64,000 nucleotides of DNA from Arcobacter nitrofigilis DSM 7299. Its GTDB lineage: Bacteria > Campylobacterota > Campylobacteria > Campylobacterales > Arcobacteraceae. The notes under the pieces are model-generated. The model was not told where the DNA came from and searched no databases. It saw only the letters and a program-made list of their open reading frames with translations. The first letter of the stretch is position 1. Every line of letters starts with the position of its first letter. The stretch lies in the NCBI RefSeq assembly GCF_000092245.1, contig NC_014166.1, forward strand, positions 3,038,001 through 3,102,000, given 5' to 3'. Of the stretch, positions 39,304 to 42,220 are shown piece after piece. The position numbers and the translations under genes were made by a program.

Positions 39304-40680
39304 TTATAATGAAGCTGGTTTTTTTCCAGCCTCATTTAAAACTACCTCTTTATAAAGCTTTTTTGAAAACTTCACCAATACCATTCCTGCAAACTTATTA
39401 TCATCTTTATTGTAAAACTCTACTCTATATATTTGACCTTTTACATCTAATGAAAATCTTTGAAGAATTTCATCCTTTTCTATTTCAAGTCCAGATTCAT
39501 TTTTGTGAGCTTTATTAACATATCCAATAACATTTACCCTATAATCATTTGGATAAACTAAAAAACTATCTGATACATCAACCAATGAACCGATTTTCAC
39601 ATCTTCTTCTTTTCCATCAATTTTGAATTTTACTTCTTCTTTTTTTTCACTTACATCTAAATAATCTGGTTCTAAAATAGATAATCTTCTATTTCCATAA
39701 TGTATTGAATAAGTAGAATTACTATTTTTTATTACAGTCATAACGGGACTACTTGGTTTAAAGTCTATTGTTCCGTCTTTTTTTGTAGGGAAATAACTTA
39801 TATAATTTCTAACATCTGATAAAGGGATTTTTATTTTATCATTATAAAAAGAGATATAAATATCATTATCTATAACATCTCTTAGTGCCAGTGGTTGTAA
39901 ATCGAATTTTCTTTTAAACTCTATTCCCATAATATTCATATACTTTTCAAGAGCCAAAAGATGATAATAAGTTCTTTCATGAACTGGCAACTCTTTGCTT
40001 GCTTCATTCCCAAAAGCAGCTTTACCCTTGTTTATTGCATAATAAGTTAATGTTTTTTCCATCTCCTTATCACCAAGTTTTGTTTTAGTGTTATGAGTAT
40101 GATAAATATCTTCTTTTCTTATCAAATTAGCATTTACTTTTTCACAAACTTCTTTACTGATTTCAGCAAGATTCCCATATACTGGGACATTTACACTAGC
40201 TTGATCAATAATTGAACTTTGTCCCCATCTATAAGGTGAATGATAATTATCTATAAATTTTTTTCTAAAATATCCACTTCCATCATGTAAATTTACTATT
40301 AACTTTACGGCAGGCTTTGTAATTAACTCTTTTATTCTTTTTACGTCAACATAATCTGGATCATCTTTTGAAATATATGCGAACTTTCTATTCATATCTC
40401 CAAAAGGGCCTCTTGATCTTTCAATAATAGATGTAAAATTTAAATTAGGAACAATCCAAACAGAACCTTTTGTTATATCATAATGTGTTGCTATTAAAGA
40501 TGCCGCCATAAAACCACCTGGCTCATCACCTTGAATACCACCTACTATTAAAAGGGTATTATCATCTTGTACACCTTTTTTAATAATCTTGAAGTTTAAA
40601 TCACTACTATGCGCATATAAATTCTGCAAAAATAAAAAAACTAATAAAACTCTAAATAACTTTAACATGCCAAGGTTCAT
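39304..40680 (-). CDS. Csd4/Pgp1-like peptidoglycan DL-carboxypeptidase (M14/M99 family)
   Basis: Exported zinc carboxypeptidase of 458 residues that should trim peptidoglycan tripeptides to dipeptides. In Helicobacter and Campylobacter this enzyme sets helical cell shape. There is a signal peptide (about 5-23). The unusual Gln-type zinc site is visible: Q50 and E53 in GGIQGDEPGG, H132 in NLHDGSG. These are spaced as in H. pylori Csd4, where I recall Gln46, Glu49 and His128. After the peptidase domain come beta domains. Ribosome site GGAGTAAGG. The gene overlaps the 3' end of the broken M15 gene by 29 bases. An internal Met at residue 5 is a less likely start. Confidence 0.88.
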   Translation of the reverse strand: MNLGMLKLFRVLLVFLFLQNLYAHSSDLNFKIIKKGVQDDNTLLIVGGIQGDEPGGFMAASLIATHYDITKGSVWIVPNLNFTSIIERSRGPFGDMNRKFAYISKDDPDYVDVKRIKELITKPAVKLIVNLHDGSGYFRKKFIDNYHSPYRWGQSSIIDQASVNVPVYGNLAEISKEVCEKVNANLIRKEDIYHTHNTKTKLGDKEMEKTLTYYAINKGKAAFGNEASKELPVHERTYYHLLALEKYMNIMGIEFKRKFDLQPLALRDVIDNDIYISFYNDKIKIPLSDVRNYISYFPTKKDGTIDFKPSSPVMTVIKNSNSTYSIHYGNRRLSILEPDYLDVSEKKEEVKFKIDGKEEDVKIGSLVDVSDSFLVYPNDYRVNVIGYVNKAHKNESGLEIEKDEILQRFSLDVKGQIYRVEFYNKDDNKFAGMVLVKFSKKLYKEVVLNEAGKKPASL

Positions 40681-41479
40681 ACCTTACTCCATCCTTATTT
40701 CCAATTGTGTATCTCATATCAATATATTTTAATGTTTTCATTTCCGAAAACTCATTTGTATGGGCAAATCTCTCCGTGAAATTATCTGCACCTAAACCTT
40801 TTTTACCAATATCAAAATCTCCAACAGAATGATATGTAAATGCTGGTGGCGCAATTGATCTTGAAGCCATAGATAAATTAAGATCTACAGAATCTAATTT
40901 ATCCAAAAATAGTTACATTTGTTTAACAACAGATCTTACTCCTGATGTTAAATAAATAGTTGGACCAATATCTTTTTTCATTTTTAAGTATGCTTCTTTA
41001 GGTTTCCCTTTGAAAATATAATGTCCTGTATATGGCACTTTCTCGATTTCTTTTTTATTAATTGATGCTGTTAAATCATTAGTTGTTCTATCACCAAAAA
41101 AACCATGATATGTTGGTTCATAATAAAAAATATGCTCAATAAAAGCTAACTCATCTTTTGTAAACATTGTATAATCTTTAGAATATCTTAAGATATTTAT
41201 AGCTTCATCAAAAGATAAAATATTAAAATTTCCATATCCTATATAATGTTGAATATAATTAATCTTTTTTTGAACATTTCTAAAAGGTATATGATATTTT
41301 TCTTCTAAAAAAACATCTTTTGATATATTTGCAATACTATTTTTATTTACAATCATATCTTTTGGAGAAAAGTTTTTTTCTTCAAAAATGTCAGTAGAAC
41401 TTGCACTACCAATTATTGGATACATTGTTGAACAAATTGCTAAATTTCTTGCCTTATCTAAAAATTCTCTTCTATTCAT
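40652..41479 (-). pseudogene. Tat-exported M15 (VanY-type) D,D-carboxypeptidase split by an in-frame stop
   Basis: The reading frame is one M15 peptidase interrupted by a single TAA (40913-40915). The first 188 codons give a twin-arginine signal (MNRREFLDKARNLAICS) and an N-terminal domain ending SGVRSVVKQM. Directly after the stop, in the same frame, the homology resumes: SRSIAPPAFTYHSVGDFDIG and YEPWHV. These match SxHxxGxAxD and the ExWH signature and carry all the zinc ligands. The upstream product alone would therefore be inactive. A TTG at 40906 opens the second part but has no ribosome site. It is a recent pseudogene, a sequencing error or a readthrough case. It lies ten bases after the DUF493 gene. 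Confidence 0.85.
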
Positions 41480-41489
41480 TCTTTCTTCT

Positions 41490-41753
41490 TTATAAAACCA
41501 TTTTTATGTCACTATGATTACCTAAAAGCTCATAAATCATCTTTCTATCATCTTCATTATGAACAAGTAAGTCCAAAGTATAACTTTTAAATTTACCCTT
41601 TGAACTAACTTTTGATTCAGTTAATTTATGCTCTCTTTCAACTATAACTTCTTTTACAACTTTTTTTATATTAACAGTTTCAACAACAACAACTTTATAA
41701 ACCCAATTACATGGATAATCAAGTTCTAACTTATGTTTATTTAAATCAATCAT
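41490..41753 (-). CDS. DUF493 (YbeD-like) family protein
   Basis: An 87-residue small cytoplasmic protein of the YbeD/DUF493 fold: the start [16 protein letters not shown] and the end [20 protein letters not shown] match the alternating alpha-beta pattern of the family. The biochemical role is not established. The ATG overlaps the moaC stop (ATGA), so translation is coupled to moaC. Confidence 0.8.
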
Positions 41754-42220
41754 CGCTTAAAATCCCCACTTTTCCCACCAGATTTACTCTCTAATTGAAT
41801 ATTAGAGATAACCATTGATTTATCAATAGCTTTTACCATATCATAAATAGTAAGTAATCCAATACTAGTACCTGTTAAAGCTTCCATTTCAACGCCAGTT
41901 TGTCCATTTAATTTAGCAGTAACTATCAATTTAAAACCAGGTAAGCTAGGTAACTCTTCAATATCACAGTTTATTCCACTTAATAATAAAGGATGGCACA
42001 TAGGTATTAATTCACTTGTCTTTTTAACACCCATAATTGAAGCAATAACAGCCGTTTGAAGTACTGGTCCTTTTTTTGTACTATTACTGATAATTGCATC
42101 ATAGGCTTCTTGAGACATAGATATCTGCCCAGAAGCTATTGCTACTCTTGTACTATCTTTTTTATCAGATACATCTACCATTTTAGGTCTATTATTTTCG
42201 TCTAGATGTGTTAAATTCAA
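41750..42220 (-). CDS. moaC: cyclic pyranopterin monophosphate synthase MoaC
   Basis: Works with MoaA in the first stage of molybdenum-cofactor synthesis, making cyclic pyranopterin monophosphate. It has 156 residues with the active-site blocks [13 protein letters not shown] near 71, [15 protein letters not shown] near 109 and [10 protein letters not shown] near 128, and the family start [10 protein letters not shown] use the TTG at 42220 because AGGAA precedes it and the N terminus is then the usual length. It begins a minus-strand group with DUF493 and the broken M15 gene. Other moa genes are not in the window. Confidence 0.95.

Follow-up and report, generated by a model that had tools for sequence, protein, structure and literature searches.

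In Arcobacter nitrofigilis DSM 7299, a gene for a zinc carboxypeptidase of family M15B (VanY/LdcB-like), predicted to be exported by the Tat pathway, is interrupted by a single in-frame stop codon. The best explanation, to which we assign a probability of about three in four, is a recent nonsense mutation that was fixed in the sequenced strain or laboratory stock and inactivated the enzyme. The gene lies in a stretch of 64,000 nucleotides (contig NC_014166.1, positions 3,038,001 to 3,102,000), referred to here as the window, and coordinates below are those of the window. We regard the stop as an ordinary nonsense lesion in a conserved accessory cell-wall peptidase, and a consensus error as less likely. 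Loss of the gene had been among the readings offered by the initial annotation, and it is now the leading one.

The interrupted gene occupies 40652..41479 on the minus strand. Translation from 41479 to 40652 gave one frame of 275 codons closed by its natural stop (40654-40652), with a lone TAA at codon 189 (40913..40915, minus strand) and no frameshift, in agreement with the initial annotation. The 5′ open piece (40913..41479, minus strand; 188 codons) contains the Tat signal, with the twin-arginine motif RR-x-F at codons 3-6 (41462..41473, minus strand), the N-terminal region, and the start of the VanY domain including SGVRSVVKQ at codons 179-187 (40919..40945, minus strand). The 3′ open piece (40652..40912, minus strand) contains the predicted catalytic Glu and the predicted zinc ligands, the latter already placed downstream of the stop by the initial annotation, and has no signal peptide of its own. 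When each piece was searched alone, the 5′ piece returned no Pfam match and the 3′ piece matched VanY (E 2.5e-6); a possible TTG restart for the latter is present at 40906. The 3′ frame is not a chance open frame, since it is 90% identical to that of a same-genus relative with a dN/dS of 0.05-0.09. The stop had been described as falling exactly between the signal/N-domain and the catalytic domain. The VanY domain of the read-through protein, however, covers residues 167-273 (40661..40981, minus strand), and codon 189 lies inside it, two codons 3′ of the conserved Gln that ends SGxRSxxxQ, so that the active site is split between the two pieces. Neither product is expected to be active, since the substrate-binding residues are separated from the zinc-binding ones and the 3′ piece lacks a signal peptide.

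The read-through protein was assigned to Pfam VanY (PF02557) with an E value of 9e-10 and 38.8 bits, above the cut-off of 25, and the intact protein of the closest relative (G001) scored 39.0 bits. It has the LAS-type zinc motif H-x(3-6)-D with E-x2-H: H217-x5-D223 (40811..40831, minus strand) provides two predicted zinc ligands, and E268-P-W-H271 (40667..40678, minus strand) the predicted catalytic Glu and third ligand, by homologue alignment and comparison with LdcB. H217, D223, E268, and H271 are invariant among 26 homologues, and SGxRSxxxQ and a Ser/Thr ahead of the first zinc His are also conserved. When a profile of the 26 relatives was searched against solved structures, the top matches were 4mph and 4jid (E 4e-5), labelled as "D-alanyl-D-alanine carboxypeptidase family" and which we take to be Bacillus anthracis LdcB, and VanXY entries came next (4mur, E 0.0014). 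The conserved residues correspond to the zinc and catalytic residues described for LdcB (PMC4087270). The likeness to LdcB/DacB (MEROPS M15B, PF02557) extends to the Gln of SGxRSxxxQ, which corresponds to the D-Ala-specificity Gln of LdcB, and to the Ser/Thr two residues ahead of the first His. The Arcobacter protein differs from LdcB/DacB in its predicted Tat export and Gram-negative host, in an N-terminal region of about 160 residues (signal included) that has no Pfam match, and in having H-x5-D rather than H-x6-D. VanY and VanXY DD-carboxypeptidases belong to the same Pfam family, but the match to them is weaker than that to LdcB, and we saw no sign of glycopeptide resistance genes adjoining the Arcobacter gene. 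The D,D specificity initially proposed is therefore not established, as LdcB precedes VanXY among the nearest structures. Whether the activity is that of an LD- or a DD-carboxypeptidase is not settled by the sequence; the conserved Gln and Ser/Thr would agree with LD specificity on tetrapeptides, although DD enzymes share the fold.

The proposed identity of a Tat-type M15 peptidase was borne out by the VanY match and by an N-terminal RR-x-F/Y motif in 40 of 43 M15 loci, which makes Tat export likely; the N terminus fits the pattern of Tat substrates, RR-x-F with a hydrophobic stretch after it. The three exceptions were the window's own gene (L001), for which the survey covered the part after the stop while the motif sits on the 5′ piece; the G002 gene (L003), in which a stop lies inside the motif; and L027, an open frame without it. 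An AlphaFold2 model built on only three sequences gave a mean pLDDT of 34.8 for the M15 protein, too low for the model to bear on a VanY-like fold. A second VanY-like match in the genome was considered as a paralogue and rejected, being a VanX-type dipeptidase (PF01427) without an obvious signal peptide.

Directly downstream is an intact Peptidase_M99 gene (39304..40680, minus strand; E 8e-84), encoding a D,L-carboxypeptidase of the Csd4/Pgp1 type, a known kind of cell-shape enzyme, as had been noted. Its product also matched the Helicobacter pylori structures 4q6m and 4wck, which we take to be Csd4 (E 4e-101 for 4q6m). These entries are described as Csd4 in PMC4220969. Upstream of the M15 gene are a HP0495-family (DUF493) gene (41490..41753, minus strand) and moaC (41750..42220, minus strand), and the order moaC, HP0495-family gene, M15, M99 is identical in the relative L051. 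The M99 ATG lies inside the M15 gene at a fixed place, with an overlap of 29 nt, in all 37 loci at which an M99 frame follows. An apparent ATG-to-ATA change in relatives had raised the possibility of a non-AUG M99 start, which was dismissed when the conserved ATG was found 12 nt further upstream. In all 37 loci, the M99 start also overlaps the codon for the M15 catalytic Glu (40667-40680 in the window).

Arcobacteraceae have two M99 types. The linked type accompanies M15 and is 52-95% identical to the M99 of the window; the other (36-43%) is located elsewhere in the genome. Defining the linked type by at least 52% identity, we found M15 together with linked-type M99 in 54 of 104 Arcobacteraceae genomes, M99 without M15 in 1, M15 without M99 in 5, and neither in 44 (Fisher P about 2e-22, uncorrected for relatedness of the genomes). 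The one genome with the linked M99 type and no M15 match (G006:C11:13476-14864) has its M99 match in two pieces. A few genomes have both M99 types; group g11 has the second type alone, with no convincing M15, and in group g2 (L060 3555-4316, G003) M15 stands beside moaC and the HP0495 gene with M99 not adjacent. Most likely, both proteins serve a single pathway, with M99 translation probably coupled to that of M15. Relative to the Campylobacter and Helicobacter trimming pathways, the M15 gene is an extra, present in Arcobacteraceae and in several further families of the order. No account of an M15 gene in Arcobacter was found in the literature searched, and the overlapping M15-M99 pair seems to be undescribed.

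We identified about 59 M15 homologues in the 104 Arcobacteraceae genomes, and internal stops occurred only within this genus. The intact homologues are single open reading frames of about 235-335 codons that span the stop position, and a comparison of the codon across relatives, as had been proposed, showed a sense codon in every aligned homologue at what is a variable position. The window's genome (G000) and G001 are 91% identical, with dN/dS of 0.12 for M15 and 0.08 for M99. In M15, 14 synonymous and 5 nonsynonymous changes fall on the G000 branch, a pattern much like that of the adjacent M99 gene, whereas about 51 nonsynonymous changes would be expected of an unconstrained gene; there was no nonsynonymous excess of the kind left by relaxation after a lesion. 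The M15 gene has been unconstrained for at most about 10-14% of this branch. As the read-through gene shows no such decay, the lesion is very recent, unless it is a sequence error. In a comparison of 133 genes from 224 kb of G000, the M15 stop was the only clear mid-gene stop; other flagged stops lay near gene ends, before the likely start, or in a short open reading frame full of stops. This rate of 1 in 133 agrees with the published count for DSM 7299, 28 pseudogenes in a total of about 3,150 genes (PMC3035288). The text of that paper gives 28 and its table gives 70, the same as the RNA count, probably by a slip in the table.

Two of the three same-genus genomes have a stop in M15, at different codons (189 in G000 and 5 in G002), and G001 is intact. 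As a control, the G000 genes of the 224 kb were set against 240 kb of the G002 draft, which revealed 12 clean single stops in conserved context among 123 genes (G002:C4; L066-L069, L089-L096). All 12 were at Glu, Gly, or Ser codons of G000, that is, one transversion class; Lys, Gln, Tyr, Trp, and Arg codons were untouched, although they and Leu codons provide the majority of single-step routes to a stop (P about 1e-7 if all such routes were used equally). The count excludes two further flagged stops, at Asn and Leu codons close to gene starts, since both lay within runs of stops that precede the probable true start. Two of the 12 lie in one MnmG-like gene. The excess would fit oxidation or damage of the sample DNA, a mutator, or assembly error. 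The G002 M15 stop belongs to the same class, and the chance of at least one such stop in the M15 gene is about 7%. Given this excess, the G002 stop is not independent evidence, and parallel loss of M15 in the genus was set aside as an argument.

The case against a recent mutation is that only one A. nitrofigilis genome was compared, which leaves room for a consensus error or for a stop confined to a single stock. If it were an error, the gene would be intact in the living strain, and the preservation of sequence on both sides of the stop looks equally like this. Errors in 454 data are mostly insertions and deletions, which counts against this reading, as does the absence of a long homopolymer at the stop site. 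The claimed error rate of the finished genome, below 1 in 100,000, would by our estimate permit up to about 30 wrong bases genome-wide, one or two of them appearing as stops, and the 28 reported pseudogenes far exceed that number; the assembly moreover drew on both 454 and Illumina reads, was polished, and included 480 Sanger reactions (PMC3035288). We therefore consider an error unlikely. The continued constraint on both pieces, together with the TTG at 40906, might instead suggest that the stop is read through, as the initial annotation had allowed, or that each piece is produced on its own and the two join to form an active enzyme. This constraint is explained by the recency of the lesion, so it lends readthrough no support, and a separately made 3′ piece would be without an export signal. 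TAA is a strong stop, it falls here at a variable residue where no homologue has a stop, and the RNA around it shows no unusual structure (z -1.8). With neither a conserved stop position nor a distinctive RNA structure, functional recoding was rejected, and we hold readthrough or reassembly to be very improbable. A normal state of two separate genes divided at this position, which had been named as an alternative to a pseudogene, is refuted in the family by the undivided frame of every intact homologue, and with no supporting case among the M15 homologues its probability is close to nil.

A different possibility is that the loss was selected, with passage or niche favouring inactivation of a trimming enzyme and altering shape or motility. 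In Campylobacter, Pgp1 trims the tripeptides produced by Pgp2 (PMC3961634), and all rod-shaped C. jejuni and C. coli isolates examined had changes in pgp1 or pgp2, some of which arose on passage (PMC5133587). These variants resemble the present case as spontaneous small lesions in a peptidoglycan-trimming gene, and the M15 gene sits with an M99 enzyme; they are a precedent, rather than evidence, for laboratory loss in DSM 7299. They differ in that another gene is affected, often by changes in tract length rather than nonsense mutation, and in that a phenotype was shown there. The Pgp2-Pgp1 pair and its Helicobacter counterpart Csd6-Csd4 have equivalents in this genome, a clear M99 homologue and a Csd6/Pgp2 homologue, but the LD step in those systems is performed by a YkuD enzyme and not by M15 (PMC3961634). 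A second M15 stop within the genus (G002) would favour selection had it not been discounted as above, and the M15 gene of G001 is intact. A. nitrofigilis is a free-living, nitrogen-fixing species from Spartina roots, and the published description of DSM 7299 is of bow-shaped or curved rods that move in corkscrew fashion (PMC3035288). There is thus no gross loss of shape on record, and if the sequenced stock matches the description, the shape of DSM 7299 was not grossly lost. One broken gene per approximately 100 requires no selection, and selected loss appears decidedly improbable.

Under the favoured reading of a recent nonsense mutation, the lesion would remove a periplasmic LD- or DD-carboxypeptidase. 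The working enzyme would trim the terminal D-Ala of stem peptides in the periplasm, from tetra- to tripeptides if LD or from penta- to tetrapeptides if DD, a step that would precede the tri- to dipeptide step of M99. With ribosomes falling off about 230 nt too soon, translation of the overlapping M99 gene may be reduced as well. The genome retains, all intact, a YkuD enzyme of the Csd6/Pgp2 type that has the C-terminal domain of Csd6, an S11 DD-carboxypeptidase, and five M23 domains above the cut-off, and with these kept, loss of M15 is plausibly tolerated; the Csd6/Pgp2-type enzyme could continue to provide LD-carboxypeptidase activity and the S11 (PBP5-type) enzyme DD-carboxypeptidase activity. 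The Csd6/Pgp2 homologue lies about 1 kb from an M23 peptidase gene on the opposite strand (G000:C1:2404582-2406205; L057, L075), likely a cell-shape cluster.

A more far-reaching proposal, possible though doubtful, is that M15-M99 forms an undescribed trimming module of Arcobacteraceae in which M15 prepares the substrate of M99, with the type strain a natural mutant whose curvature is affected. DSM 7299 is of use chiefly as a candidate natural mutant. Should the allele be real, one enzyme of a conserved cell-wall pair is missing from the strain that serves as reference for the genus, and caution would be needed in taking that strain's shape, wall, or responses to wall-directed drugs as typical of Arcobacter. 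Of more value than the stop itself is the conserved M15-M99 pair, whose overlap offers a testable lead on wall trimming in the curved Arcobacteraceae.
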